From NCBI GenBank assembly GCA_023660035.1, contig JAGXOF010000004.1, forward strand, positions 1 to 32,242: a stretch of 32,242 bases of DNA, written 5' to 3'. Numbering within the stretch: the first letter of the stretch is position 1; each line of letters opens with the position of its first letter. The position numbers and the translations under genes are program-made. Source of the stretch: Dehalococcoidia bacterium LH_S1 (GTDB lineage: Bacteria > Chloroflexota > Dehalococcoidia > SZUA-161 > SpSt-899). Positions 5,248 to 24,557 of the stretch are shown here, in pieces. The notes beneath the pieces were generated by a model, which was not told where the DNA came from, made no database searches, and worked only from the letters and a program-made list of their open reading frames with translations.

Positions 5248-7188
5248 ATGTCTGGAATTTTGGATAATATCCATTCCCCAAGTGACCTCAAGAAACTAAT
5301 CTATACTAAGTTGGATCAACTTGCCTCCGAGATCAGGCAAACACTTATAGAAAGAGCATCACTGAACGGAGGGCATCTGGCCTCCAATCTAGGCGTGGTT
5401 GAATTAACCATCGCTTTGCACAGGGTCTTCAACAGCCCCAAAGATAAGATAGTATGGGATGTGGGACATCAAAGTTACAGCCATAAACTTCTGACTGGGC
5501 GGAGGGATAGCTTCGCCACAATCAGACAGTACGAAGGGCTGTCCGGTTTCCCCGCTCGCGATGAGAGCCCTCATGATGCCTTCGGAGCCGGCCATGCCGG
5601 CACATCGGTTTCAGCAGCTTTGGGTATGGCACTCGCACGGGACCTCAAAAGAGAGAACTTCCACGTGGTTCCTGTCATAGGAGACGGAGCCCTCACTACT
5701 GGTATTGCATTGGAAGCAATCAACAACGTAGGACACATGGGAACAAAATTAACCGTGGTTCTATGCGATAACAACATGGCAATATCCCCAACTGTCGGAG
5801 CTATATCGACACTGCTCAGTCAGGTCAGGACAGACCCCAAGTATGAGATGGCAAAGGGAGAAGCCAGGAAATTCGTGACCTCCATGCCATTAGGAGGCCC
5901 TGCATGGACTGCCAGCAAGATAATGAAAGACCGACTCAAAAGGGCAATTCTCCCTCCCGCTTTTTGGGAAGACCTGGGTTTCGTCTACATAGGCCCCGTT
6001 AACGGGCACAATATCAACGAGATTGAATCCGCGTTGAAAAGGGCTCGCGACTTCGAGGACAAACCAACCCTGGTACATGTTTTAACGAAAAAAGGTAAAG
6101 GCTATTCGCCAGCCGAGGATGATGCAGTTAAGTTCCACGGCGTCTCGCCGCCCAAGACCAGTAAGTCAGAGGCCCCTTCATATAGCAATGTCTTTGGGCA
6201 GACAACCCTTCGGTTGCTCGAGGAGGACCAGAGGGTAGTGGCCATCACGGCGGCTATGTTGGAAGGAACCGGTCTGGCTGAAGCCGCCCAGCAGTTCCCA
6301 AACAGGGTATTCGATGTAGGTATCTGTGAGCAGCATGCAGTTACACTGGCCGCTGGTTTGAGCACACAAGGGTTCATCCCAATTGCAGCCATCTATTCCA
6401 CTTTCCTGCAGCGGGCCTACGACCAAATAATCCACGATGTTTGCATTCAGAACCTGCCAGTGGTTTTCGCCCTCGACCGGGCAGGTATAGTTGGCGAGGA
6501 TGGCAAGACACATCAGGGAACCTTTGACCTCAGTTATCTGCGCAGTGTTCCCAACATGGTTGTGGCCGCCCCGAAAGATGAGGATGAACTCAGGCACTTG
6601 CTTTTCACAGCGGTCAACGCGGCATGTCCAATGGCCGTTCGTTATCCCAGAGGCAATGGCGAAGGCGTACCCATGGAGCACGTGCTGCAGCAGTTACCCA
6701 TCGGCAAGGGGGAAGTGCTGAGAGAAGGACATGACCTCTCTATACTGGCAATTGGGTCCACAGTCTACCCTGCCCTAACAGCAGCAGAACAGCTGTCCAA
6801 AGATGGGGTAAAGTGCACAGTAGTCAACGCCAGATTTGCAAAGCCACTGGACCAAGACCTTATAGTGGAGCTCGGCGCCAGAACGAAAAAGGTTCTGACC
6901 ATCGAGGAAAACTCTATTAATGGAGGATTTGGCAGCGCTGTGCTGGAGTTGTTTGAGAGCCACAACCTCTCAGATATTAAAACACGATGTATCGGCCTGC
7001 CAGACGAATTCATCGAGCACGGTCCTCAGGCGATGTTCCGCTCCATGTTCGGTCTCGATCCCAAAGGTATAGTCAGGAAGGTGAGAGCATCTTTCCCTGA
7101 ACTTTTCCCCGAACCCATCTTCCCCTCCCATTCTGAGCAAAGGGAAGAATCCTGTATTGCTCACTCCAATCACCGGGACAATGAGTGA
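5248..7188 (+). CDS. dxs: 1-deoxy-D-xylulose-5-phosphate synthase
   Basis: Full length; TPP motif GDGALTTGIALEAINNVGHMGTKLTVVLCDNNMAISPTVGAIS; SYSHKLLTGRRDSFATIRQYEGLSGFPAR; AGIVGEDGKTHQGTFDLSYLRSVPNM. Confidence 0.97.
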   Translation: MSGILDNIHSPSDLKKLIYTKLDQLASEIRQTLIERASLNGGHLASNLGVVELTIALHRVFNSPKDKIVWDVGHQSYSHKLLTGRRDSFATIRQYEGLSGFPARDESPHDAFGAGHAGTSVSAALGMALARDLKRENFHVVPVIGDGALTTGIALEAINNVGHMGTKLTVVLCDNNMAISPTVGAISTLLSQVRTDPKYEMAKGEARKFVTSMPLGGPAWTASKIMKDRLKRAILPPAFWEDLGFVYIGPVNGHNINEIESALKRARDFEDKPTLVHVLTKKGKGYSPAEDDAVKFHGVSPPKTSKSEAPSYSNVFGQTTLRLLEEDQRVVAITAAMLEGTGLAEAAQQFPNRVFDVGICEQHAVTLAAGLSTQGFIPIAAIYSTFLQRAYDQIIHDVCIQNLPVVFALDRAGIVGEDGKTHQGTFDLSYLRSVPNMVVAAPKDEDELRHLLFTAVNAACPMAVRYPRGNGEGVPMEHVLQQLPIGKGEVLREGHDLSILAIGSTVYPALTAAEQLSKDGVKCTVVNARFAKPLDQDLIVELGARTKKVLTIEENSINGGFGSAVLELFESHNLSDIKTRCIGLPDEFIEHGPQAMFRSMFGLDPKGIVRKVRASFPELFPEPIFPSHSEQREESCIAHSNHRDNE

Positions 7189-8254
7189 GCAAACGAACCG
7201 CTACCACACATCGGGAAAAGAGAAAGAAGTGAATTTACCTTCAATCTTTGAAAGATATCGCAAAGAGGTAGACAACGAGCTGCGATCGATCTTTGTCGAT
7301 TACCATCTACCTCTTTACGATATGATGCGATATCACCTCGGATGGATAGATGAGAACGGACGCCACATCGAGGGTACTGCAGGTAAGGCATTACGTCCAA
7401 TCCTGTGTCTGCTCGCCTGCGAGGCCGCAGGCGAGCATTTTCATAAAGCATTGCCCTCTGCTGCAGCAATTGAGCTGGTTCATAACTTCTCACTGATACA
7501 TGATGATATTCAAGATAATGACACGGAACGCCGTCACCGGCCCACGGTCTGGAGCATGTGGGGCATTCCACAGGCCATTAACGCAGGGGATGGTATGCGA
7601 GCCATAGCTGATCTTGCTATTCTCCGTCTCGAAGACCGCGGCGTCCCGCAAAAAAAACAACAACGCGCTCAACGTCTTCTGGATGAAAGCTGTCTTAGAA
7701 TGATCGAGGGACAGTACCTCGATCTAAGTTTCGAAGGTCAATTTAATATCTCCGTCAATGATTATCTGGAGATGATAGACCGCAAAACAGCAGCCCTAAT
7801 GTCATGTGCATTGCAGACAGGAGCCATCATCGGCACTGATAATGAATCCGTAATCGAACGCCTCAGAGAATTTGGCAAGAACATAGGGCTTGCCTTTCAG
7901 ATCAGAGACGATGTTATTGGCATCTGGGGAGATCAGGATAAAACCGGCAAACCCCTGGCCAGTGATATCCACAGGAAAAAGAAATCTCTCCCTGTAGTAT
8001 ATGCGCTGCAAACCGCGCGCGGCACAGCCCGGGAAGAGATTTCAAACATTTACAAGAAGTCAGGGATTACAAAGCAGGAGGCAGATAGGGCCCTAGATAT
8101 CCTCAACGAAGTACAAGCAAGAGCTCATAGTGAGAGAATGGCCGAGGAATACCGCAACAGTGCCCTGACTGAGTTGGAGAAGATAAAAACCTCCAGATGG
8201 GCGAGGGCCCATCTGGAGGAGGTAGCATATTTCCTGGTTGAACGTGCTTTCTAA
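7181..8254 (+). CDS. Polyprenyl (farnesyl/geranylgeranyl) diphosphate synthase
   Basis: Aspartate-rich motifs LIHDDIQDNDTERRHRPTVW and FQIRDDVIGIWGDQDKTGKPLASDIHRKKKSLPVV; ATG overlaps the dxs stop (ATGAGTGA). Confidence 0.93.
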   Translation: MSEQTNRYHTSGKEKEVNLPSIFERYRKEVDNELRSIFVDYHLPLYDMMRYHLGWIDENGRHIEGTAGKALRPILCLLACEAAGEHFHKALPSAAAIELVHNFSLIHDDIQDNDTERRHRPTVWSMWGIPQAINAGDGMRAIADLAILRLEDRGVPQKKQQRAQRLLDESCLRMIEGQYLDLSFEGQFNISVNDYLEMIDRKTAALMSCALQTGAIIGTDNESVIERLREFGKNIGLAFQIRDDVIGIWGDQDKTGKPLASDIHRKKKSLPVVYALQTARGTAREEISNIYKKSGITKQEADRALDILNEVQARAHSERMAEEYRNSALTELEKIKTSRWARAHLEEVAYFLVERAF

Positions 8255-8256
8255 AA

Positions 8257-8538
8257 ATGATTGATCAAATGGGTACAATTCCCCAGAAAACCAACAGTAA
8301 CCGCAAACTGGAACATTTGAATATCACACTAAACGAAAATATCGGGTCTAAGGACCTGCCTACAGTACCGGAAGCTTACCGATTTGTCCATCGAGCACCG
8401 CTTGAGGTAGATTTGTCCGGCATCGACCTGCCCATTGAGCTCTTGCCCAAAGAACTCAATGCACTGATCATCATTTCACCCATAGTCAGAGGTGTGGGAC
8501 AGGCAATGGAGATCAACAGGAACATGGCCAGGGCATGA
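8257..8538 (+). pseudogene. fni: N-terminal fragment of type-2 isopentenyl-diphosphate delta-isomerase
   Basis: RKLEHLNITLNENIGSKDLPTVPEAYRFVHRAPLEVDLSGIDLPIELLPKELNALIIISP...EINRNMARA matches the Fni N-terminus pattern (K.EHL.I.L...G...YR.VH.ALPE.DL..IDLST...GK.L.APLLISSMTGG...INRNLA), then ends at 93 aa instead of ~350. Confidence 0.75.
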
Positions 8539-9266
8539 TGATAGCAATGATATGTGCCATGACTCAGGAGTTCAACAGCTTGCTCAGGAAAGTAAATGCC
8601 GGGGAAGCCCTTTCGAAAAATGGTTTTAGAATATGTGAGGCAGGATATGAAGGTGAAGATATATTGCTTATAGAAACAGGCCCCGGCAAGAAGAAAGCGG
8701 AACAAGCCACTGAGTCAATACTTCAGGATTATCCTGTTAGTGGGGTGGTATCGGTTGGCTTTGCCGGAGCTCTGAATGATAAACTGGCAGTTGGTGATCT
8801 CGTGCTTTGTCAAACGCTGTACTCTCAAACAACTGATTCAACTAAACCTTACTATTGTGATAGCAAATGGGTTTCATCGTCGCTGGTAAAGGCGGAGCAG
8901 AGGGGAATTGCCCTGCAAGAAGGCAGCAGTGTAAGCGTCAGGATGCCTGTTTGCGATATTGTAACTAAAGAGGCTCTCGCCAGAGAGTTCCCGGCCACAG
9001 TGGTAGACATGGAGAGCTACTGGATCGGCCAGATTGCACTATCAAAGGATATCCCGTTCCTCTGCATTCGAGCTATATCCGATGCGTTGGACGACTATTT
9101 GCCGCCATTTGATCGCCTTAAGAACTCCGATGGCTCATGGCGAAAAGGGAGAACTCTCTTGTATCTCCTGGTCAGGCCATGGCGACTGGCAAAGACTTTG
9201 TTCCTCTACAGGAACATGAAGCGAGCTGCGGAGAGTTTGACAAAATCGTTTGAGCTCATGAAATAA
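8535..9266 (+). CDS. MTA/SAH-nucleosidase-like phosphorylase, HpnG-like (hopanoid-associated)
   Basis: MIAMICAMTQEFNSLLRKV...IETGPGKKKAEQATESIL...VSVGFAGALNDKLAVGDLVL...VVDMESYWIGQIALSKDIPFLCIRAISDALDD. Confidence 0.8.
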   Translation: MMIAMICAMTQEFNSLLRKVNAGEALSKNGFRICEAGYEGEDILLIETGPGKKKAEQATESILQDYPVSGVVSVGFAGALNDKLAVGDLVLCQTLYSQTTDSTKPYYCDSKWVSSSLVKAEQRGIALQEGSSVSVRMPVCDIVTKEALAREFPATVVDMESYWIGQIALSKDIPFLCIRAISDALDDYLPPFDRLKNSDGSWRKGRTLLYLLVRPWRLAKTLFLYRNMKRAAESLTKSFELMK

Positions 9267-9274
9267 TCTGAAAT

Positions 9275-10030
9275 ATGAAAGCATTGGTGACAGGCGCTAC
9301 GGGATTCATAGGAGCTAACGTAGCACGAGGATTGTTGAATCAGGGGTTCCACGTAAAGGCCCTGTTCAGAGAAGATTACAATCTACGACACAAATGTAAG
9401 AGGAACGAAGAACATACTCACTGCGGCTATGGAAAATGGCGTCAGGAAAGTTGTGTACACTAGCACTGAATCCACTATAGGAATCGGGAAGAACGATGAC
9501 TTTGTCACAGAGGCATGAGAGATGGACCCTGAGCACATCAAGGGCCACTACAAATGGTCAAAGTTTTTTGCAGAAAGGATCGCGCTGAACATGTCTCATA
9601 AGGGGCTACCAGTGGTTATCGTGAATCCCACCGCCCCTGTAGGCCCCTTCGATGTGAAGCCTACCCCCACAGGAAGGATTCTCCTCAGTCTACTGCAGGT
9701 GACAATGCCCATATACTTGAATGTGGGATTGAACATCGTAAGCGTAGAGGATGTCCATATACTGGCCCTGCAAAAGGGGGAAATAGGCGAGCGATACATA
9801 CTTGGAAACAAGAATCTTCCATTTCAGGAGATATTCGATATTCTTAAATGGGAATGGCATATATCGATGAAATACTGGAGGGCAGGATTATGAACCGCCT
9901 TCCCAGGGTTCAGTTAGATACGGTCAGGGCTGCTCACAGATTCAGGTTCCATAACTGCTCAAAGGCGATAAGGGAACTGAGCATGCCTCAAACCCCGGTT
10001 GAAGTCGCACTCGGGGAAGCGGCAAAATGA
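9275..10030 (+). pseudogene. hpnA: Hopanoid-associated NAD-dependent sugar epimerase (HpnA-like), disrupted
   Basis: Rossmann start MKALVTGATGFIGANVARGLLNQGFHVKALFRE, then a deletion with frame change to YDTNVRGTKNILTAAMENGVRKVVYTSTESTIGIG, an in-frame TGA, GHYKWSKFFAERIAL...PVVIVNPTAPVGPFDVKPTPTGRILL, a further frame change, and the C-terminal SKAIRELSMPQTPVEVALGEA. Confidence 0.85.
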
Positions 10031-10164
10031 TTCAGAGATAACGGATATGTGCGCTGACAGGCCTCCAAGTTCAAGGTTCAGGATTAGCTTAAAGATGAAG
10101 GTTGAAAGCTTTGAAGAATTCAAGGCAACTAACCGTGAACCGTGAATCCAACAGGAACGACAAG

Positions 10165-11181
10165 ATGCAGTCGCAGACACAGGCCAGCTGGAAATACTGT
10201 GAGGAAATGCTGCCGAAGGTCTCGAGGACCTTTGCCCTTAATATCCGTGAGCTGAAGGGGGACACCCACCGGGCAGTTCTCCTCGGCTATCTGTTCTTCC
10301 GCATCGCCGATACATTCGAGGACAACATGCATCAGAGCGAAGAGGAAAAGGTTAACACGCTCAATAGCTACTCCGATATCTTCAAAGGGAATAAGAGTCT
10401 GGATGAGCGGCTGGGATTGTACGAGTCATTGAAATTCAGGTGGAACGAGCAATCGCCTGATGAAGAGCTTGTGGAGAACGGCGACCGGGTTATCCGGTGC
10501 TACTTTGATTTGCCAGCTGTTTACCGCCAGATAATAGACCCGCACATCGTCATGACCTCGGAAGGTATGGCCAACTTTCAGCAGAGGAAGCTGGCCAGCG
10601 ATTCAAAAATATTTCAGCTTCAAGACGTGAGTGATCTGGAGAACTACTGTTATTACGTGGCTGGCGTCGTGGGAATGATGCTAACTCAGCTATTCTGCCA
10701 GCATGAAAACATCTCGGGCCTGCGGCCGGAACTGGAGAGGCATCAACTCGACTTTGGTCTGGCATTGCAACTCACGAATGTACTCAAGGATTCTCAAAAG
10801 GACCTGGAAAAGGGCTGGTGTTACCTCCCAACTTCAGTAACAGAGGAACACAACGTTGCGCCCGAAGAACTTGCCAATATTACCCCCGAGCAAAATAGGG
10901 AAATGTTAGAAGAACTGCTTGACGTGATATTGTCATCCTACGATTCAACTCTGAAATACATAGAGACGATCCCTGAAGAGGAACATTCCGTGCGGATGTT
11001 CTGCACAATAGCCTTTGTGTTATCCTACAATACGTTGCTTAGCATAATGAACATGAAGGAGAGCAAAATACCCCGGGAGCAGGTTGACAATATACTAGCG
11101 CAATGCAATTCCTTTGCCGCATCAAACAAGCTGCTGGAAGAGGACTATCTAAAGGTCGTGAATCAGCTGAGGCAGGATTGA
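10165..11181 (+). CDS. Squalene/phytoene synthase family protein
   Basis: LPKVSRTFALNIREL, FFRIADTFEDN, YCYYVAGVVGMMLTQLF, LDFGLALQLTNVLKDSQKDLEKGWCYLP. Confidence 0.9.
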   Translation: MQSQTQASWKYCEEMLPKVSRTFALNIRELKGDTHRAVLLGYLFFRIADTFEDNMHQSEEEKVNTLNSYSDIFKGNKSLDERLGLYESLKFRWNEQSPDEELVENGDRVIRCYFDLPAVYRQIIDPHIVMTSEGMANFQQRKLASDSKIFQLQDVSDLENYCYYVAGVVGMMLTQLFCQHENISGLRPELERHQLDFGLALQLTNVLKDSQKDLEKGWCYLPTSVTEEHNVAPEELANITPEQNREMLEELLDVILSSYDSTLKYIETIPEEEHSVRMFCTIAFVLSYNTLLSIMNMKESKIPREQVDNILAQCNSFAASNKLLEEDYLKVVNQLRQD

Positions 11182-12329: not shown

Positions 12330-13045
12330 TCACCCCCGTAAGCTTCTCCATTTTCCTGTAATACCACATATAGCCTCCGATCTTGTTCTGTAACGGCGGT
12401 GATGGATGAGCGCCTGCTTCAGCGTACCCCAGAAACTCTCCATAGGTGCGTTATCATAACAGTTTCCCTTCCTGCTCATGGATGCCTTCAGTCCGAAGTG
12501 TCCCATGAGGTTTCTATACTCGTGAGAGCAGTGCTGGCTGCCCCTGTCAGAGTGGTGTATCAAACCTTTAGTTGGGCGTTGGGCAACTACAGCCTTAAAC
12601 CGTGATTGGCTTACCAGATTCCTGGTCAATCGCTCTCCCATTGCGTAGCTAACGATGCTGCCAGTAAAAAGGTCCTTATGGCTGGCTACGTACAGCCACC
12701 CTTCATCTGTAGGCACATAGGTTATATCCCTAACCCACACCTCATTCGGCGCAGTAACCTTGAACTGCTGCCCCAAGATATTCTCAGCTACAGGAAGTTT
12801 GTGTTTTGAATCCGTGGTAGTCTTGAATCTCTGCTTCTGTTTGCAGCATATGCCAAGCTTCCGCCGAATCCGCTTGATCCGGCAGATACCCACCTGTATC
12901 CCATGCTCCGCCAGGTCCTGCTGTAGCCTCTCTGCACTATAGGTATGTCTTGTCCGCTTGTGTGCCGCTCTAATCTCTACCTCCAGCCGCGTTTCCTCCT
13001 AAGCCCACTTCGATAATGGCCTCTTCATCCAGGCATAATATCCGC
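12330..13045 (-). pseudogene. IS3-family transposase OrfB, 5' truncated, with in-frame stop
   Basis: VSASGYYAWMKRPLSKWA*EETRLEVEIRAAHKRTRHTYSAERLQQDLAEHGIQVGICRIKRIRRKLG...VWVRDITYVPTDEGWLYVA...LIHHSDRGSQH...SRKGNCYDNAPMESFWGTLK. Confidence 0.9.
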
Positions 13046-13938
13046 TGGCTGATACGTTTAAGATGTGGCTTATCGGAAGATACCTGGTCGCCACGCCCTT
13101 AAAGTGACGCATCCAAGCCTTTAGCCGGCTGTGATAGGCGTTGACGTTCTGGATGTGGAAGACCTTGTCTACAACACGATTGCCCTTTGTAAGATTGACA
13201 AGTTTCTCTCTCCCTTGCGGGAGTGAAGTACAACGGTTGACCTCGGGCAAGAGGTTCTCTCCAACGGCGGCGTTTTCCCGAATGATCTCGTGCGTATACC
13301 CCAGTTTGGACAATCCGTTGTAACCTCCCCATCCATCTGTCTGGACAATACTACCCACTTCCACCGCCTCCTTGATGGCCTCCTTCAAACTGGGGCCAGA
13401 AGCATCAGGTACACGCCTGAGTCGAATCCGAGCAGTCTTGCCTTCTTAAGCTCTACCATGATAAGGACCAATGCCTTACCTGCAGCTCCTCGTCCCCGCT
13501 TACCTGGCTTCTCCCCCCTATATAAACCTCGTCTGCTCTGATCAGGCCAGAGAGCCGATCCCGACCAGGTCGGACCATAGCGCAGCGAAGCTTGTGCAGC
13601 CACGTCCACGCAGTCTTATAAGACCCCAAATCAAGAACACGAGTCAACCCCAATGCATTGGCCCCATACTTCTGAGAGGTTAAGTGGCAAATGGCACGAA
13701 ACCAAAGGGGTAAGGGTTTCCTGGTATCCTGAAAAATAGTTCCAGCTATGACAGATGTTCTGTATCCGCACTTAGCGCACTGGAACAACACACCCCTTAT
13801 TGGCCAAGCCTTTTGATGCCCACAACGAGGGCAACAAAAGCCATCAGGCCAGCGCAACCGGTAAATATAATCGTGACACGACTCCTCGGTGGGGAAACGG
13901 GCTTCGAACTCCATTAAATTTCGCGGATAGTCCTCCAT
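13046..13938 (-). pseudogene. IS1595 (ISXO2-like) transposase with two frameshifts, 3' end fused to the IS3 remnant
   Basis: Zinc ribbon CPRCGHQKAWPIRGVLFQCAKCGYRTSVIAGTIFQDTRKPL; IRADEVYIGG; frame change; EKPGKRGRGAAGKALVLIMVE; frame change; RIRLRRVPDASGPSLKEAIKEAVEVGSIVQTDGWGGY...HIQNVNAYHSRLKAWMRHFKGVATRYL. Confidence 0.9.
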
Positions 13939-14074: not shown

Positions 14075-15997
14075 TTATTTCCTGTTCCACAGCAGAGTGG
14101 TCAGGATAAGCACAGTTCCAATTAGCCCCAAACCAGCCAGAGTGGCAGCCATTTTCGGAAAGGCAATAAGAAACCCGCCTAAAGCCATCGCTATACGTTG
14201 TGTTATGGGCAGCTTGCCAAACTTTATGAGGTATCCTTCGAGGCCGGATGCCAGGATAAAGATGCCCAGCATAGCTAGAGCGGTGTGATAGAGTATCTCC
14301 CACGGCGTGCCCTGCATAATCAGGGCCGGCTGAAGGACAAAGAAGAAAGGAACGAAGACCAGTACAATTCCCAATCTCAGGCTGGTCCAGGCGGTCTTTG
14401 TAGTGTCTGCGTCAGCTACGCTGGCTGCAATGAAGGCGTTTATGGCTACTGGAGGGGTCAGTCCACCCAGCCCTGCATAAAAGATTATAAATAGGTGCAC
14501 GGCGATTACGGGGATGCCGGTAACCATAGCCACAGCTGGAGCCATGGTGACAGCCAGGAAGAGATATGATGTTCTCTGAAGACCGACCATGCCCATCAGA
14601 AGATTAAATATCGCACCTATCAAGAGCACCAGAAACACGTTGCCAGCACCAAGAGAAACTACCCAGGCAGTTACCGCTGCTGCCATCCCTGTCTTATAAA
14701 GCCCTACCAGTATGAATCCTATGGAGAGGAATATTGCCATTCCAAAGTTTACTAGTCCGGCGGTATATGCCAGCGTCTCCTCCAGTCTGCGGAGGGTTAG
14801 GCTCTTGCGCTTTGTGATTACATTAAGCAGTAACATCAGCACAGACGCATAGACTGGAGTAATCATTCCCCATCGCATGTAGAGGAGGCCGAAAATGAGG
14901 AAAGCAATACAGAGGAGATATATCCATCCTTCCTTAAGGGTGGACCAGATTCTGGGAATATCCTGGGGAGCCAGGCCTTTGAATCCGGCCTTGGCCGCAT
15001 AGCCGTCTACTTGCACCAGCAAACCGGCGTAGTAGAGCACGGTAGGGATAAAGGCGGCTACCATGATAGCGGCATAGTCCACGTTAGCGATTATGGCGGC
15101 CATGAAAACCATTCCTCCCATCACCGGAGGCATCGTATCACCGCCGGATGAGGCGCAGGCTTCAGTGGCTGCGGCATATTCCGATGAGTACCCTGTTCTT
15201 TTCATTGCGGGGATAGTGAATGAGCCTGTGGCAGCGATGTTGGCAGTTATACTCCCGATCAGGCTGCCGAAGAAGCCGCTGGACAGTACGGCTATCTTGG
15301 CTGGGCCTCCCCTTACCTGGCCGAGGAGGGCGGTTGCCAGTTTGAGGAAGAACTCGCCCCCGCCCAGTCCCAACATCACTCCTGCGAACAGGTAGAACCC
15401 GAGAATCATCTTTGCCAGCATCGCTGCTGGTAATCCCAGTATGCCGTCGGCGCCGAAGGCGAAGTTGGAGAATATCTCCTGGAAAGAAAGGCTGAATCCG
15501 TACAGTACACCTGGCATTTTGTCGGCGAAGAGGGGATAGATAATAGAGAGGACAAGCACTGCCGTGTATCCCCAGCCTCCCACCCTCCTCCCCGCTTCCA
15601 ATGAGAGAAGCCCCAGAACTAAAGCCAGGACAAAGTGAAAAATGGAAGGCGCAGGTGTCCATAGCTGCGTGGAGATTTCATTGGAGTGGGAGAGGAAAAA
15701 GAAGAGAGTGGCAGGGAGCAAGAGTGACAGAAGATAGTCATACCAGGGAGGCGCGTAGTCTCTGCTTTTGCGGCTGGACCCCAGTCCAATGAATACATTG
15801 AAACCGAGGATGGCGAAGAGAAGGTAGAAGTATGTGGTGCCGCTTATGACCTTTCCGGCTACGGGAATTGCCAGCCAGTACAGAACGAATAGTACTATCG
15901 CTGCCAGCGTGGTGCCGAGATATATTATCTTTACAGGCGCTGGCAAATGGCGATATCGCGTTAGGGATAGGCCGGACGGCTGCCCTTCTGTAGCCAA
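14075..15997 (-). CDS. TRAP transporter permease, fused 4TM/12TM (DctQM-type)
   Basis: ~640 aa, many TM segments; GSITANIAATGSFTIPAMKRTGYSSEYAAATEACASSGGDTMPPVMGGMVFMAA and GLGGLTPPVAINAFIAASVADADTTKTAW are characteristic. Confidence 0.93.
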   Translation of the reverse strand: MATEGQPSGLSLTRYRHLPAPVKIIYLGTTLAAIVLFVLYWLAIPVAGKVISGTTYFYLLFAILGFNVFIGLGSSRKSRDYAPPWYDYLLSLLLPATLFFFLSHSNEISTQLWTPAPSIFHFVLALVLGLLSLEAGRRVGGWGYTAVLVLSIIYPLFADKMPGVLYGFSLSFQEIFSNFAFGADGILGLPAAMLAKMILGFYLFAGVMLGLGGGEFFLKLATALLGQVRGGPAKIAVLSSGFFGSLIGSITANIAATGSFTIPAMKRTGYSSEYAAATEACASSGGDTMPPVMGGMVFMAAIIANVDYAAIMVAAFIPTVLYYAGLLVQVDGYAAKAGFKGLAPQDIPRIWSTLKEGWIYLLCIAFLIFGLLYMRWGMITPVYASVLMLLLNVITKRKSLTLRRLEETLAYTAGLVNFGMAIFLSIGFILVGLYKTGMAAAVTAWVVSLGAGNVFLVLLIGAIFNLLMGMVGLQRTSYLFLAVTMAPAVAMVTGIPVIAVHLFIIFYAGLGGLTPPVAINAFIAASVADADTTKTAWTSLRLGIVLVFVPFFFVLQPALIMQGTPWEILYHTALAMLGIFILASGLEGYLIKFGKLPITQRIAMALGGFLIAFPKMAATLAGLGLIGTVLILTTLLWNRK

Positions 15998-16003
15998 ATG
16001 AAT

Positions 16004-16222
16004 TTATCCTATCCTCTTGCCCTGCTCGTCAGCTACTTTGACGGGTTCTTTGGGGAAACCGCTGACAGTGCCACTGGATAGTGTTATAACCAGCTCGCAT
16101 TTGGCACCGGGAGTGGCTTTGCCTTCTACAGTTATCGTTTTGTTAATGTGGGCTGGATCGGTAACCGAGGTGAATTCGAAGCTGAGACCGCTCTCAGAAG
16201 TCGCTTTGGGGGTTTCCTTCAC
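16004..16222 (-). CDS. Small ORF between TRAP subunits, extracellular Ig/FN-like fragment
   Basis: 72-aa ORF whose GTG start overlaps the TAXI stop (GTGA); KTITVEGKATPGAKCELVITLSSGTVSGFPKEPVKVADEQGK. Confidence 0.45.
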   Translation of the reverse strand: MKETPKATSESGLSFEFTSVTDPAHINKTITVEGKATPGAKCELVITLSSGTVSGFPKEPVKVADEQGKRIG

Positions 16223-17496
16223 TGTTGGTCCGGGGGTTCGGGCTCCGGCACACTTGTAGGTATTACCTCTTCGCCGCTTTCAGTCAAACTTACATGGAGT
16301 CCAACCTTTGGTATATTATGCTCCACTTTGTATGTTTCCCACAGTGTTACCCACTCCTGGTTTGCCGGACTTATCTCTATGCCCTTCTCCTCGGCTAGGC
16401 TTTTGGCATTGGCGTAAGCATCAACGTAGGTGTTGAGCAGTTCTATGTTTTCCAGCTGCCGGCGCTCATGTGCTTCCGTCCATAAACCTTTCTCTTGCAG
16501 GTACTTTATGAGACCTTCGTGGACGGGGATGTAAGTGGTTTTCAGGGCCTCCATGAGATGGTCGATGCTCATATACTTGTTGGAGTCGTAGGCCTCCTTG
16601 TACTGGTTATAATTTTCATCGAGCCACTTGGCAAAGTGATAGACAAGTTCCGCATCGTGTTTTTTGGTAGTGATGTCGAATATGTAGCCAACTGTTCCCC
16701 AATGGCCAACGGCTTCCGACACGCCGGTTTTGATCGGTGCGAAGGAATAAAGCGGACTCCTTGCTTGCCAGCGCTTGGCTCCCTCCGGGTCCTTCTCAGC
16801 GTTCAGGTCCAGGAAACGGATGCCGTGAGGGGCGGAAGCCACTTCATAGAGGGTTGGGGAGGTGGGGAAGCCGAAGGCGACATCGGTCCTGCCCTCGGCT
16901 ACGGCCCGCATCGCCCCTTCAAAGCTGCCTGCATTTACCCATTCGATTTTTTCTTCGTCGAGTTGAATCCAGGCCAGCAGGGAGCGGAAAGGGTTCAGAG
17001 TGGAATCTTTCATGTTCCAGACCGAGAACCTCGTACCTGGGCCGATATCGTAAATCCTCTCGATATCCGAATCGCCACGGACGAAGAAGCCGGAGTTGGC
17101 CAGGTCGTGAATCCAGACAACCCTTGCTTGAAATGGCCCGCCGTCTTTGGTGGCGTGGTCTTCTGTGGCCTCAATGACGTTACTCAGCATGCTTTTGGAA
17201 GCGGAACTCAGGAACATTTCGCCATCTTTGAGGTAGCGCATGCATTTACCGGGATCTGCCTCTGGCACGACACGAATGGCCATTCCGGTATCGTCTTCCA
17301 TTATAGATGCCCAGCTGACGTATTTGGCCAGTCCGCTCTGGCCCGGGGCTGCAATGTGAAGCCGTTCCGGCCACTGCCAACCCTGATCCGCTTCTTCAGT
17401 CTGGGTTGTGCCTGAGGTGCATCCTGTTAAAACTAGAGTACTGCCCAGCACAAGCAGTAAAGCTATTAGTAGTGGTTTAAACAAGTGCCTAGTCAT
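16219..17496 (-). CDS. TAXI-family TRAP transporter solute-binding lipoprotein
   Basis: Lipobox LVLTGC; LHIAAPGQSGLAKYVSWASIMEDDTGMAIRVVPEADPGKCMRYLKDGEMFLSSASKS..., adjacent to the fused TRAP permease. Confidence 0.85.
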   Translation of the reverse strand: MTRHLFKPLLIALLLVLGSTLVLTGCTSGTTQTEEADQGWQWPERLHIAAPGQSGLAKYVSWASIMEDDTGMAIRVVPEADPGKCMRYLKDGEMFLSSASKSMLSNVIEATEDHATKDGGPFQARVVWIHDLANSGFFVRGDSDIERIYDIGPGTRFSVWNMKDSTLNPFRSLLAWIQLDEEKIEWVNAGSFEGAMRAVAEGRTDVAFGFPTSPTLYEVASAPHGIRFLDLNAEKDPEGAKRWQARSPLYSFAPIKTGVSEAVGHWGTVGYIFDITTKKHDAELVYHFAKWLDENYNQYKEAYDSNKYMSIDHLMEALKTTYIPVHEGLIKYLQEKGLWTEAHERRQLENIELLNTYVDAYANAKSLAEEKGIEISPANQEWVTLWETYKVEHNIPKVGLHVSLTESGEEVIPTSVPEPEPPDQQ

Positions 17497-17499
17497 TCG

Positions 17500-18630
17500 T
17501 CAGTCTCCTTTCTGTCTTGCTTTGTTTGCCTTTGTCCACAGTGGTGGTTCGTATACGCAGTATGGCTCCGCCTCCAGATAGTCTCCTGTGGCTGCGTATG
17601 CCCTTGCCCGGCAGCCTCCGCATACCCTCTTGTACACGCAGACGCCGCACTTTCCCTTCAGTTTGGAAAGGTCTCTCAAGTCTCTGAATAATGGGGCATT
17701 GACCCATATTTCGCCGAAGGATTGTTCCCTCACGTTGCCCGCTTCGATATCCAGGTAGCCGCATCCCTGTACTCCGCCCCGGTGGGAAATGAAACAGTAG
17801 CTGGTGCCAGCAAGACATCCTCTGGTGATGGTCTGCATGGGTTGATAAGTGGATTCAGAATTCGAGGTTTGATTCCTGGGTGCTTCGCTTTCTCTTTGCT
17901 TTACTATCCTCATATAGTGGGGCGCATCCGTGGGTTTGAAGAACATCCTGTCCCCGAGTTCCATCTGTTTATCGTATATCCAGTTTAATGTTTCCTCATA
18001 TTGTTGAGGGGACAGCTCCTGGTCTTCAAGGCCTTTACCGCGCCCGGTGGGGACCAGCATGAATGGATGAAAGGCCACAGCTCCGATCTCTATAGAAAGA
18101 TCCAGCAGGTCGGCTAAGTAGTGGACATTTAATTTCGTCACGGTGCTGTTGATCTGAACTTCAATGCCTGCGCTGCGGGCGTTGGCGATTCCATCCAGCG
18201 CCTCCTGATAAGCCCCCGCTTTGCCGCGGAACTCATCCTGACGTTCCGGGATTGGGAAGTCTATACTCACTGCCAGGCGGGATACTGGCACTTTCTTCAA
18301 TTCGGTAGCCAATTTCCTGGTGATCAACGTGCCGTTGGTGCCCATGACCACTCTGAGACCTTTACTCACACCGTATCTGGCTATTTGCAATACGTCCGGT
18401 CTTACAAGTGGCTCGCCTCCGGTCAGAATGAGGATTGGTTTCGCTACTTCAGCTATCTGGTCGATCAGTCGATAGCACTCCTCGGTTGTGAGTTCATTTT
18501 CATACGGTTCGTTTTCTGAGGAGGAGCGGCAATGGGCGCAGAAGAGGTTGCAGCGGCGGGTTATTTCCCAGGCCACCAGATGCAATCTGGGCTCGATGAT
18601 GTCCTTGTTGGAATGGTTATTCATACTCAT
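17500..18630 (-). CDS. ahbD: Radical SAM/SPASM protein, AhbD/NirJ-like (AdoMet-dependent heme synthase)
   Basis: PRLHLVAWEITRRCNLFCAHCRSSSE, ILTGGEPLVRPDVLQIA, TRGCLAGTSYCFISHRGGVQGCGYLDIEAGNVREQSFGEIW, KCGVCVYKRVCGGCRARAYAATGDYLEAEPYC. Confidence 0.82.
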   Translation of the reverse strand: MSMNNHSNKDIIEPRLHLVAWEITRRCNLFCAHCRSSSENEPYENELTTEECYRLIDQIAEVAKPILILTGGEPLVRPDVLQIARYGVSKGLRVVMGTNGTLITRKLATELKKVPVSRLAVSIDFPIPERQDEFRGKAGAYQEALDGIANARSAGIEVQINSTVTKLNVHYLADLLDLSIEIGAVAFHPFMLVPTGRGKGLEDQELSPQQYEETLNWIYDKQMELGDRMFFKPTDAPHYMRIVKQRESEAPRNQTSNSESTYQPMQTITRGCLAGTSYCFISHRGGVQGCGYLDIEAGNVREQSFGEIWVNAPLFRDLRDLSKLKGKCGVCVYKRVCGGCRARAYAATGDYLEAEPYCVYEPPLWTKANKARQKGD

Positions 18631-19796
18631 TTGATGCCGACCTCCTCATCGGTGAGATAGCAGGCAGGGTCTTCTGCCCAGACATCACCATAAACCGCCT
18701 CCGCGCGCTCACGCAGGTTGCCGTTGCAGATATCAAGATATTGACAGTTACTACACCGTCCCTTGAGCAGCTTTTTGCGGTCTTTTAGGCCTTGCATCAG
18801 GGAGTCAGAGGTGCTTGTCCAGATATCGCCGAATTTGCGCTCAAGGACGTTGCCAGCGGAGTAGGGCCACCAGAACTGGTCAGGGTGAACATTTCCTTCC
18901 GGATCCACAGAGCCGATTTTGATACCCGAGTTGTTGCCTCCATTCCTTTTTAAAAGTTTATAAACAAGCTGAGCGCGCTCTGGGTCTTTCTCCTTCAATT
19001 TCAGATAGAGGTAGACGCCGTCAGAGTGATTCGCAACGGTGAGGACCTCCTTGGGCAAACCTCGCCGGTGCAGGTCCTCGGTAAGCTCACAGATAGTATC
19101 CACAGCTTGCCTGCTCTGACCATGCTCTATGTCATCCTGAACCAGCGTGCTAGCTCTGCCAGAGTAGGCCAAGTGATAGAAACAAAGCCGGTCTATTCCT
19201 TCCTGCCCTGCGAGAGAGAACATGGCCGGTATTTGCTGGTAATTGAAACGTGTAATGGTAAAACGCAGTGAAACCCGCATCTCGTTCTTGATACAGTTTC
19301 TGATTCCCTCGAGGGCTGCCCGGTATGCGCCCTGCCTGCCTCGAAAACGGTCGTTGATTTGTTCAGTCCCGTCCAGGCTTATGCCAACCTCGGCAAATCC
19401 TATCTTACTCAGTCGCCTGGCGATGTCCTCTGTTATCAGCGTACCGTTGGAGGAAAGCGCTACCCTCAGTCCACTCTCAACGGAAAATTTAGCAAGTTCC
19501 AGTAAATCGTCTCTTAGCAAGGGCTCCCCACCGGAGAATAAGATCACCGGAACGCCGAAGGCGGCAAGGTCACTGATGAAAGCCTTGGAGGAAGCCGTGT
19601 CCATTTCCGTAGCCGATTGGCTTTCCCCAGCGGAAGCGTAACAGTGTACGCATCGCAGGTTGCAGCGACTGGTGCAGTTCCAGACGACAACCGGGACAGA
19701 AGTTGATGCTTTGATGGAGTCAGGAGATGACTCTCCATAGCGGAGGCTATCACCCGGACTGTGAATATCGCACAGGAGACGGGAAATGGAAATCAC
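18627..19796 (-). CDS. ahbC: Radical SAM/SPASM protein, AhbC-like (12,18-didecarboxysiroheme deacetylase)
   Basis: MISISRLLCDIHSPGDSLRYGESS...VPVVVWNCTSRCNLRCVHCYA...NVHPDQFWWPYSAGNVLERKFGDIWTSTSDSLMQGLKDRKKLLKGRCSNCQYLDICNGNLRERAEAVYGDVWAEDPACYLTDEEVG. Confidence 0.85.
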   Translation of the reverse strand: MISISRLLCDIHSPGDSLRYGESSPDSIKASTSVPVVVWNCTSRCNLRCVHCYASAGESQSATEMDTASSKAFISDLAAFGVPVILFSGGEPLLRDDLLELAKFSVESGLRVALSSNGTLITEDIARRLSKIGFAEVGISLDGTEQINDRFRGRQGAYRAALEGIRNCIKNEMRVSLRFTITRFNYQQIPAMFSLAGQEGIDRLCFYHLAYSGRASTLVQDDIEHGQSRQAVDTICELTEDLHRRGLPKEVLTVANHSDGVYLYLKLKEKDPERAQLVYKLLKRNGGNNSGIKIGSVDPEGNVHPDQFWWPYSAGNVLERKFGDIWTSTSDSLMQGLKDRKKLLKGRCSNCQYLDICNGNLRERAEAVYGDVWAEDPACYLTDEEVGIK

Positions 19797-20452
19797 AGGG
19801 ACTTATCCCCTTTTTCAATGAGAGTAGAACTGTTATGTCGCTGATGCGTGGTTACCAGGGAAAGCAAGGCTACATCCATTACCTGGGCCATTAGCGGGAT
19901 AGCTCCCGCAACCCTGCTAGTGTGAGCCTCGCGCTTTTTCAAGAGATGGGATATCGCCTTCATAATCGGGTCACGATGAAGGTTAAATGCCTCTACTGAG
20001 TCGGTCAGGGGCAACCCAAGACCGGCAAGGGTTTCCCCAAATCCCTGTCCTACATCGCGAGCGTATTCCAGTGTCTGTTCCCTTTTCGCAGGCTCGTTAA
20101 GATACCTGATAATAACATCGATCATGTTGCGGCCAAGTTGTGCCAGCGCTGATTTTCCTTCCTTGTTCAGTTGGCTATGCCAGTCCTTTGTGATGAGGAA
20201 TGTCCTGCCGATTTCCCTGTGCAGATCACTGGTAGCTTCGATTTCTGCTATTAAATCCTTTACCCCGATAGGCTTGCGATTTGAACTCATGAGGTTGTTC
20301 AATTCCCTTCTCGAATAGCGACGATGCCCCCCAGGAGTAATAAAGGCTTTAATCTTGCCCTCATCTGTCCACTGCCTTAGAGTAACCTCACTTACTCCCA
20401 TGATGGCAGAGGCTTCACTTATAGTTAGCAGGGCTTCATTAGTTGCTGGCAT
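19793..20452 (-). CDS. Transcriptional regulator with MerR/excisionase-type HTH and helical C-terminal domain
   Basis: LLTISEASAIMGVSEVTLRQWTDEGKIKAFITPGGHRRYSRRELNNLM followed by a ~140-aa alpha-helical domain. Confidence 0.82.
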   Translation of the reverse strand: MPATNEALLTISEASAIMGVSEVTLRQWTDEGKIKAFITPGGHRRYSRRELNNLMSSNRKPIGVKDLIAEIEATSDLHREIGRTFLITKDWHSQLNKEGKSALAQLGRNMIDVIIRYLNEPAKREQTLEYARDVGQGFGETLAGLGLPLTDSVEAFNLHRDPIMKAISHLLKKREAHTSRVAGAIPLMAQVMDVALLSLVTTHQRHNSSTLIEKGDKSL

Positions 20453-20487
20453 TCTATCAACACAAAATCTATAAAAAACTACAAGAA

Positions 20488-20516
20488 ATTATAACTTGAT
20501 GAAGTGCCGATGTCAA
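20488..20516 (-). promoter_or_regulatory. Exact-consensus sigma70 promoter TTGACA-17-TATAAT upstream of regulator-ahbC-ahbD-TRAP
   Basis: - strand reads ttgaca (20516-20511), 17 nt, tataat (20493-20488), ~35 nt before the ATG at 20452. Confidence 0.85.
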
Positions 20517-20520
20517 CCTG

Positions 20521-20977
20521 ATGGAGCAATTCAGACAGTATGAGCAAGGGGGAATAGGATTTGTAGTCGTCGATTTAAAGAGCTTAAGGCTTGTAATATC
20601 TCCCTGGACTTTCGAGCATCCACTGGCTTAGAGAATCAAATCAAAGAACGCCTTTGCAGAGATTTCGATTTTCAGGCGTATAATGATAAGGTGAAACTTC
20701 TAGATAAGTTATTTAACCAAATAATGAGTGTAGCGAGGGCCTGTCGAATATCAGCAAGCATGTTCAAATACGGAACTCATTTCAACACCGTGGTGGTATG
20801 GTCGATGAACTACTGCTTAGAGAATTGGGGGTACGAAAGATATCCCTGCTGGATGTAGATGGGAATCCTCAAGAATATCAGATCAATGATAAAATCGAGT
20901 TGTCTGTTCCTGAATTCGATCCTTTCCGACGTTCGTTGTTAATGGTTGGTCAGGCTTGGAGGAGATGGAATGGCTAA
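20521..20977 (+). pseudogene. Frameshifted HEPN-like protein remnant
   Basis: Frame pieces MEQFRQYEQGGIGFVVVDLKS / RFKELKACNISLDFRASTGLENQIKERLCRDFDFQAYNDKVKLLDKLFNQIMSV / EGLSNISKHVQIRNSFQHRGGMVDELLLRELGVRKISLLDVDGNPQEYQINDKIELSVPEFDPFRRSLLMVGQAWRRWNG*; RNSFQH fits the HEPN Rx4-6H motif. Confidence 0.5.
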
Positions 20978-21200
20978 CATACAAATGGAGGTTATTCCAG
21001 AACCTGATAAAGGGACTGCTTCTGTTTTGGTACCAAGTTCGGGAGGACCACAGATTATGTTGAGAGGTGATGGAGATGACACTTACATTTGTGGATGTTG
21101 TGGCGAATCAATCTATGAAAACGTGCAGAGAGGCCAGATTGTCAATCTTGTGTTTAAATGCTTTAACTGCGGTTCCTTTAATCGAGTTAGGGGTACTTAA
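20970..21200 (+). CDS. Small zinc-ribbon protein (76 aa)
   Basis: Two CxxC pairs: ICGCCGESIYENVQRGQIVNLVFKCFNCGSFNRV; GGAGGAG ribosome-binding site; start overlaps the end of the upstream remnant. Confidence 0.6.
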   Translation: MANIQMEVIPEPDKGTASVLVPSSGGPQIMLRGDGDDTYICGCCGESIYENVQRGQIVNLVFKCFNCGSFNRVRGT

Positions 21201-21292: not shown

Positions 21293-21778
21293 TCAGGCAA
21301 AGCGCGAGATGTGTTCAGACAGAAATTGGGCTACCTGGGCAGTGTCAAATGGCCATGCGTAGACTGTCTCTACCTGCGGATTGGACTTGCTGAACTCATT
21401 GAGCTTGTCTGGTATGTCCTTTTCGGCATGCTCTCCACCCCACGTCATCATCGTGGTGGCGACGATTATCTTCGTTGCGCCTCTATCCACAGCTGATTGC
21501 AGGGCTTCATCCATGCCTGGAGCACAAAACTCGTTGTATCCGACAATTACTTCGTATCCTGAGACTTCACCGAGATGTGCTGCTAATTCCTGAGAGGCTG
21601 TGTAAAAGGGGTCGTTCTGTTCATTGCGAGGCCAGTTTCTCATCCTGGCCTCAAGAAAAGAATACCGGTCTTGAACTGATTCCGGATTACCAACATCCCC
21701 TTGTTCAACAAGCGAACGCAGTCTGAAGAATTCGGCGAGTTCCTGTCTGGGGAAATCTCCGGGAGGCGTGCCATGCAT
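21293..21778 (-). CDS. CbiX-like sirohydrochlorin chelatase family protein
   Basis: (TLIVLA)MHGTPPGDFPRQELAEFFRL...VIVGYNEFCAPGMDEALQSAVDRGATKIIVATTMMTWGGEHAEKDIP: chelatase fold and the His-containing sites expected for CbiX relatives. Confidence 0.7.
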   Translation of the reverse strand: MHGTPPGDFPRQELAEFFRLRSLVEQGDVGNPESVQDRYSFLEARMRNWPRNEQNDPFYTASQELAAHLGEVSGYEVIVGYNEFCAPGMDEALQSAVDRGATKIIVATTMMTWGGEHAEKDIPDKLNEFSKSNPQVETVYAWPFDTAQVAQFLSEHISRFA

Positions 21779-21884
21779 GGCCAGTACGATTAGCGTTTTT
21801 ATGGTTTCATTCTATCGTATTGGCTTCCAACAATGTAGTGTCAGGCTGTAGTTATATAAATCGGCGGCATAATTCGTGGCGGAG

Positions 21885-21923
21885 ATTGTGAGCTGGCCCG
21901 CTGTAAGCGGGCCAGCTCACAAT
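21885..21923. repeat. Perfect 17-bp inverted repeat ATTGTGAGCTGGCCCGC-TGTAA-GCGGGCCAGCTCACAAT
   Basis: Exact reverse-complement arms with a 5-nt loop between two - strand genes; may act as a terminator or REP-like element. Confidence 0.9.
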
Positions 21924-21976
21924 GACAGATCCTCCTCTTCTGGATTCCAGCTTCTGCCGGAGTAACGTCTGCGAGA

Positions 21977-22681
21977 CTACCCCTTCCCGTACTTTCTCCG
22001 GAGCTTTGGTTTCTCCAGCTTCCCGGTCGGGTTCCTTGAAACTTTATCAAATATGATACGTCTGGGGCGCTTGTAGCGTTGCAGGTTTTCTTCGCAGAAC
22101 GAGGTTACCTTTTCCTCTGAGAGTTTCTCTCCCGGCGCTGGCTCGATTACGGCCGTTACCATTGGGATAGGTCGTAGTCCGCGAGGCGAAGCTCCCCGCG
22201 GTCGAGTGCGGAGACGATATCGTGAGCCCAGGGCACGAGCAACCATACTATCGTGCCCTTTTCATTCTGTACAGGCTCCAATACGCACTGAGGGCCTATC
22301 TCGTTCAAGAGCACGCCTTTCCCTCCGACAAGAAGATTCCCCATCCAGAACATTTTACCCCCTGCATGGTACAGGGGAGGTATTAGGATAAAGTTATCAT
22401 CATGAGTTTGAAAGTGGTGGGCTTGCTCTGTTATGGTAGCGCATTCCATGTTTTTGTGGTTAAGAAGGATGGGCTTTGGCGGGCCGGTAGTGCCTGAGGT
22501 GAAATAGAGGCCGCATTCATCCTCGGGGGTAAGTGTTACATGTACAGGGTCGATTCGCTCTTTCATCGAATTCTCGCCAGGTAATCTCCTTTCTGAATCC
22601 CTTGCTCGGGACCAGTTCAACGAGAGCTACTTCCTCAGGATACCTTTGGGCCTTTCTCGCCAGCATCTCTGAGATATTCAT
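21977..22681 (-). pseudogene. Acyl-CoA synthetase/AMP-dependent ligase with two internal deletions
   Basis: N-term MNISEMLARKAQRYPEEVALVELVPSKGFRKEITWREFDERAN | core ECGLYFTSGTTGPPKPILLNHKNM...LADYDLSQW | C-term VTAVIEPAPGEKLSEEKVTSFCEENLQRYKRPRRIIFDKVSRNPTGKLEKPKLRRKY, in different frames. Confidence 0.87.
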
Positions 22682-24007: not shown

Positions 24008-24557
24008 ATGGCAAAGACATACAAATATGAGCACTTTATTCCCCAGTATTACAACATCACTACTAGTTGTATAGAGAACTATGCCATGGGAGTATTGGGC
24101 ATTGATTCGGAAGATATTCTCTTCTCAGCCTCCAAGGTCTTTTTTGCCTATGGTTTAGGCAACGCCCTTCTGTATTCTCTAGGGACTGGTGCCTCCGCCG
24201 TGCTGCTTCCTGACCGTCCTCTCCCAGAGACTGTTTTTGAAACCATCCAGAAGTATGGCGTGACTGTTTTCTTCGGAATCCCGACACTCTATGCCAACAT
24301 GCTCCGGGTGGAGAACGTGGAAGATAAATATGACCTGTCGTCGTTGCGCATTTGCACTTCGGCAGGGGAAGCGTTACCACAGGATGTGTTCAACGAATGG
24401 TAACGAGCCATCCGATAAACTTGCCAAGGATATTCAGTCGTATATGAAGAATAGCATATCACCATACAAATACCCCATGTGGATAGAGTTTGTGGACAGT
24501 CTCCCCAAGACATCAACAGGCAAGATTCAGCGGAATAAGTTAAGAAATCAGGCATAG
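24008..24557 (+). pseudogene. Benzoate-CoA-ligase-like AMP-dependent synthetase with internal deletions
   Basis: MAKTYKYEHFIPQYYNI | CIENYAMGVLGIDSEDILFSASKVFFAYGLGNALLYSLGTGASAVLLPDRPLPETVFETIQKYGVTVFFGIPTLYANML...CTSAGEALPQDVFNEW | frame change | DKLAKDIQSYMKNSISPYKYPMWIEFVDSLPKTSTGKIQRNKLRNQA. Confidence 0.88.

Follow-up and report, generated by a model that had tools for sequence, protein, structure and literature searches.

In a stretch of DNA of 32,242 nucleotides from Dehalococcoidia bacterium LH_S1 (hereafter the window), and in other Dehalococcoidia, the gene of an AhbD-like heme synthase lies beside the genes of a TAXI-TRAP transporter. This link is conserved, is more than chance and is no accident of the window genome. 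With regard to its function, we lean slightly towards an interpretation, derived from sequence comparison and gene context, in which the transporter would import the substrate of AhbD or the metal-free form of that substrate (a compound of the coproporphyrin III type), a chelatase would add iron, and AhbD would complete heme.

The window operon and its products

The window is contig C150 of a draft genome (G000; 1.12 Mb, 205 contigs, 64% complete). A first-pass annotation, made from the sequence alone, had placed six open reading frames (ORFs) on the minus strand, overlapping or a few bases apart, and had read them as one operon. The ORFs lie where it placed them (Table 1) and the operon is real: the genes of the regulator, the AhbC-like and AhbD-like proteins, the TAXI protein and the fused permease are joined by overlaps or short gaps, including 4-nt overlaps at the regulator/AhbC-like and AhbC-like/AhbD-like junctions and a 3-nt gap between the AhbD-like and TAXI genes. 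The small ORF, previously counted as a separate sixth gene, loses that status. In UBA5627 (Dehalococcoidia, L121), the corresponding sequence (70% identity) continues the TAXI protein in the same frame, and comparison with that locus reveals that the tail of the window TAXI has been severed by a frameshift and a deletion. Comparable tails are present at three other loci (L085, L086 and L090) and absent at three more (L067, L083 and L084).

Table 1. Genes of the window operon and the neighbouring chelatase gene (window coordinates)
Feature	Position	Strand	Basis
MerR-type HTH regulator with helical C-terminal domain, 219 aa	19793..20452	-	HTH_17/MerR profile; conserved upstream position
AhbC/NirJ1-like radical SAM/SPASM protein, 389 aa	18627..19796	-	Profile scores; CX3CX2C; neighbours in relatives
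AhbD-like heme b synthase, radical SAM/SPASM, 376 aa	17500..18630	-	TIGR04545; cysteine motifs; tree
TAXI-family solute-binding lipoprotein, 425 aa	16219..17496	-	PF16868; clade found only with AhbD
Small ORF, frameshifted and truncated C-terminal tail of TAXI gene	16004..16222	-	Comparison with L121
Fused TRAP permease, small and large subunits, 640 aa	14075..15997	-	TIGR02123; DctM 239 bits
CbiX/ferrochelatase-like class II metal chelatase, 161 aa as listed	21293..21778	-	CbiX profile; fold model

In profile searches, the AhbC-like protein scored best against NirJ1 (547.9 bits) and reached 528.7 bits against AhbC (TIGR04546), both below the cut-off of 650 that applies to each family. Its CX3CX2C motif spans residues 45–52, and its orthologs in relatives adjoin AhbD and AhbAB. 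The best family of the AhbD-like protein is AhbD (TIGR04545; 468.8 bits, below the cut-off of 500), with NirJ2 as the runner-up (356.5 bits), and its orthologs in relatives lie between AhbC and AhbAB. Set against the published AhbD motif (CX3CX2C plus SPASM cysteines; PMC10452713), the protein has the radical SAM motif (C27, C31, C34) and a C-terminal series C272-X17-C290-X37-C328-X2-C331-X5-C337-X2-C340-X17-C358, which contains the AhbD cluster motif CX2CX5CX2CX17C (C328, C331, C337, C340, C358) and amounts to seven of the eight full-SPASM cysteines, the first one missing. Identification of the pair as peptide maturases was rejected, the best maturase-type scores being ~138 bits (AhbC-like) and 162 bits (AhbD-like) as opposed to 548 and 469 bits for the heme group; at the family level, the AhbC/AhbD assignment of the first-pass annotation is upheld. 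The same genome has another AhbD-like radical SAM gene, with 38% identity, on a 2.6-kb contig (G000:C9:1042-2043, L061).

The window TAXI protein scores 67.1 against PF16868 (cut-off 27) and 68.1 against TIGR02122, below that family's cut-off of 84.35, and the permease exceeds the TRAP_fused cut-off (TIGR02123; 428 bits, cut-off 320.65). By gene content, a TAXI binding protein and a neighbouring fused TRAP permease make up a TAXI-TRAP transporter, the same two components as in VcGluP of Vibrio cholerae (PMC11574862). Glutamate is the known ligand of the VcGluP type (PMC11574862). Unlike known TAXI-TRAPs, the window-type clade has a long C-terminal extension, two clade-specific lysines (K58 and K101) and two clade-specific tryptophans (W160 and W186), and it always sits with AhbD. 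The AlphaFold model predicted for this TAXI (pLDDT 52) did not have the quality that an analysis of the pocket requires.

Ahead of AhbC-AhbD in de novo operons, and likewise ahead of AhbD-TRAP-TAXI in the transporter-linked gene sets that we call cassettes, lies the gene of the same regulator; among the regulator homologs compared, a C-terminal FxxHR motif (H159) is nearly invariant. Elsewhere in the window, the several transposase-like ORF fragments that follow immediately after the operon (12330-13938) are probably insertion-sequence remnants, and an 84-aa zinc-ribbon-like ORF with two CxxC pairs lies between the chelatase and regulator genes (20946-21200, plus strand), for which a Pfam profile search gave no match. 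An AMP-ligase-like (acyl-CoA synthetase) gene is broken across two frames (21841-22620; further fragment at 24008-24403), and positions 5248-11181 of the plus strand hold a row of isoprenoid genes (DXS-like, polyprenyl synthase-like, phosphorylase-like and squalene/phytoene synthase, PF00494).

Conservation of the linkage and loss of the upstream pathway

Across 394 genomes of the class, the TAXI type, defined by at least 42% identity, occurs in 11, and in 10 of these AhbD adjoins it; in the eleventh (G335), the contig begins inside the permease gene and AhbD is on another contig. Two layouts are found, in a total of six families. The first, AhbC-AhbD-TAXI-TRAP, is that of the window and, up to contig ends, of G127 and G285; the same gene order is repeated in two further named Dehalococcoidia (L121 and L124), and named members of the class carry TAXI relatives with 67–77% identity to the window protein. 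The second, regulator-AhbD-TRAP-TAXI without AhbC, is that of G311, G083, G215, G205, G360 and G239, and also of G125, in which the regulator had no match. No AhbD was found near TAXI relatives below 42% identity, and no AhbD, regulator or CbiX homolog near TAXI relatives in Proteobacteria and Desulfobacterota. The AhbDs linked to the transporter make up two supported clades, of 5 and 8 rows, in a tree of 44 AhbDs; since there are only two, independent events were few, and the linkage may go back to no more than one or two origins. In G053 (L032 5648-8741), a DctP-type TRAP system, with its binding protein and its small and large permease, lies just upstream of regulator-AhbC-AhbD; it is a second TRAP beside heme genes, but probably an unrelated one.

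Homology searches revealed neither HemB, HemC, AhbAB nor AhbC in G311, G083, G205, G335, G360, G239 and G125. These seven TAXI-positive, AhbC-negative genomes are 91–99% complete, and two of them (G083 and G205) are single contigs. Conversely, among the AhbC-positive, TAXI-negative genomes examined, HemB and AhbAB are present in 18 of 18 and HemC in 17 of 18, and full operons of relatives run AhbC-AhbD-AhbAB-HemA-HemC-HemD-HemB-HemL. The window operon shares with the Ahb pathway (AhbA-D) the AhbC- and AhbD-like enzymes in pathway gene order and differs from Ahb operons in having TAXI-TRAP in place of AhbAB; in the cassette-only relatives, everything that comes before AhbD in the pathway is absent. 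The first-pass annotation had suggested that the transporter acts in support of an incomplete heme pathway, and these relatives, which keep AhbD and TAXI-TRAP without the upstream enzymes, greatly strengthen this idea. It had also named relatives lacking the neighbourhood as contrary evidence: such relatives exist but carry the complete pathway. In the literature, siroheme genes are reported from only two Dehalogenimonas genomes of a terrestrial cluster (PMC7506110), a pattern that would be consistent with a division into cassette and full-pathway genomes.

AhbD at 55% identity or more occurs in 62 genomes, 10 of them without AhbC; eight of these 10 have the TAXI type, and the other two are 62% (G062) and 77% (G354) complete. 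When only genomes at least 90% complete are counted, the TAXI type is present in 7/7 AhbD-positive, AhbC-negative genomes versus 2/38 AhbC-positive genomes (Fisher p ~8e-7, ignoring relatedness). G064 is an exception in having HemB, AhbAB and AhbC with only distant AhbD homologs (36–37%). Within three families (f15, f63 and f78), cassette-bearing genomes occur alongside genomes with the full operon, which suggests that the two were switched repeatedly.

The window organism retains more of the pathway. Another contig of its genome (C128) encodes a CysG-N/HemA fusion, HemC, CobA/HemD, HemB and HemL, together with the start of a CbiD-like gene, a very large CobN-like protein and a BtuFCD-like transporter (HemL, CobN, Btu and CbiD were named by inspection of the sequence); a search for AhbAB gave no match in this assembly, which is 64% complete. 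Of the complete separate heme operon that the first-pass annotation considered a possible counter-indication, the early genes are present. It counts against the salvage interpretation that AhbC, for which pure coproporphyrin salvage would have no need, is retained in the window genome and in close relatives, and that the window genome holds the early genes. The cassette may supplement synthesis in this organism, or AhbAB may truly be lost; with HemA to HemL and AhbC still encoded, supplementation is more likely than replacement of the de novo pathway.

A chelatase as probable partner

The CbiX/ferrochelatase-like gene upstream of the window operon is a probable partner of the cassette. All 12 members of its group match the CbiX profile; two of the 12 also match ferrochelatase (PF00762) weakly (best E 7e-5), below the cut-off. 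The SirB match has an E-value of 1e-10, and H2 and H117 are invariant. A fold model (pLDDT 85) gave its best E-values with CfbA and SirB, and Bacillus subtilis ferrochelatase covers more of the model than does CfbA (TMq 0.54 vs 0.46). The protein therefore has in common with class II chelatases (CbiX, SirB, CfbA, HemH/CpfC) two invariant histidines, the CbiX profile and the CfbA/SirB fold, but differs in an N-terminal HGxPPxDFPR...WPR...NDPF stretch that lengthens the ferrochelatase alignment, and in its occurrence in cells without sirohydrochlorin synthesis: where HemB is lacking, there is no sirohydrochlorin on which it could act. Canonical ferrochelatase was found in none of 18 genomes, the lone weak PF00762 match (G125) being the chelatase gene itself. 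Homologs begin ~7–8 residues upstream with MKxxIVL; in the window (21778-21810, minus strand), a stop stands just before the MKxxIVL stretch, where there is no standard start codon, and the gene start may be altered.

The chelatase is present in 10 of the 11 TAXI-positive genomes versus 2 of 18 TAXI-negative genomes with the full pathway, and adjoins the cassette in G083, G205 and G215. In f63 and f78, it is unlinked to the cassette, has a MiaB-like gene or a membrane protein as neighbour with nothing heme-related recognised, and also occurs in cassette-free G268 and G274; the co-occurrence is therefore partly family history. In f15, the chelatase tracks the cassette within the family.

Proposed porphyrin salvage and alternative explanations

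In the mechanism that we propose, TAXI would bind a porphyrin carboxylate from outside the cell (coproporphyrin III or the iron form of it being most likely), which the fused permease would carry in. The CbiX/ferrochelatase-like protein would insert Fe2+ when the ring is metal-free, and AhbD, as predicted by homology and context, would convert Fe-coproporphyrin III to heme b by the oxidative decarboxylation of two propionates that is the chemistry of this enzyme. The MerR-type regulator, possibly a sensor of heme or porphyrin, would control the cassette genes. In relatives, the cassette would replace the de novo pathway, whereas in the window organism it would more likely supplement it. The claim in its full extent, namely a compact salvage system that joins a coproporphyrin III TAXI-TRAP importer (the first tetrapyrrole TRAP) to a half-size chelatase and AhbD, draws on porphyrin that neighbours release and has repeatedly replaced de novo synthesis, is put forward tentatively, and we rate it slightly below even. 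A literature search for a TRAP porphyrin importer gave few hits and no such paper. Coproporphyrin is released and used between bacteria, as in the Leucobacter/Sphingopyxis case cited in PMC12285269 and PMC11139205. This cross-feeding resembles the proposed salvage in that a bacterium grows on released coproporphyrins; unlike the proposed salvage, it is described in those citing passages without a transporter or AhbD-based completion.

One alternative, which we regard as unlikely, is that the TAXI-TRAP of the window clade takes up siroheme, didecarboxysiroheme or a tetrapyrrole of that kind, which AhbC and then AhbD would finish. This would explain why AhbC is retained in that clade and adjoins AhbD and TAXI in the window, G127, L121 and L124; it would also suit G127 (91% complete), which has AhbC and AhbD without HemB, HemC and AhbAB, and the identity of only 42–45% between TAXIs of the two cassette clades. 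However, the cassette-only genomes have the same TAXI type without AhbC, the upstream genes are present in the window genome, and both G127 and the window genome are fragmented drafts, in which the absence of a gene may be assembly loss.

Equally unlikely is uptake of glutamate, 2-oxoglutarate or another carboxylate, with the AhbD link due to co-regulation or chance. TRAP substrates are usually small, as this explanation would have it. Characterised TAXI ligands are likewise small acids such as glutamate (PMC11574862), next to which a porphyrin of ~650 Da would be exceptional, and this counts against salvage. Against uptake of small acids stand the linkage of all close TAXI homologs to AhbD wherever the contig allows, over both gene orders and all six families; the tracking of upstream pathway loss by TAXI; and residues, such as the two lysines named above, that set the AhbD-linked TAXI clade apart from unlinked TAXIs. 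Moreover, HemB and HemC are needed to turn glutamate or ALA into heme. In cassette-only genomes, import must supply a compound no earlier in the pathway than the AhbC product, which excludes glutamate, ALA and 2-oxoglutarate as heme precursors there. The first-pass suggestion of glutamate or 2-oxoglutarate is not supported, since these relatives could turn neither into the AhbD substrate, and its mention of an export role found no evidence.

Still less probable is that the AhbD homolog of the cassettes modifies another imported tetrapyrrole or an unrelated molecule and does not make heme b. The sub-threshold NCBIfam score of the window protein (468.8 vs 500) would be in keeping with this, but the cluster cysteines are retained, and cassette and operon AhbDs alike have 57–63% identity to the window AhbD. 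In G215, a single contig, the de novo operon encodes AhbC, AhbAB, HemA, HemC, CobA/HemD, HemB and HemL (HemA, CobA/HemD and HemL named from reading of the sequences) and no AhbD; as the only close AhbD of this genome is that of the cassette, the cassette enzyme probably makes real heme. Furthermore, cassette-only genomes keep cytochrome-c assembly proteins (PF01578) and hence need heme, and a cytochrome-like gene lies beside the cassette in G360; in the window's clade (G000, G285 and G127), cytochrome-c assembly genes were not found, which counts against salvage. From these comparisons, the cassette AhbD probably performs the normal last step of heme synthesis. Uptake of ready-made heme with AhbD as a leftover is very improbable: it would suit genomes that need heme and do not synthesise it, but AhbD would then be useless and is nevertheless intact in every cassette, in at least three families.

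These findings bear on the substrates of TAXI-TRAP transporters, of which few are known, and on the way in which anaerobes without the pathway obtain heme. Genomic context, loss of upstream genes and the natural gene replacement in G215 point to a single class of testable substrates. If it takes place, the porphyrin import proposed here would be a new route of tetrapyrrole transport, would explain the heme supply of Dehalococcoidia without de novo tetrapyrrole synthesis, and would make coproporphyrin a growth-factor hypothesis for hard-to-grow anaerobes.
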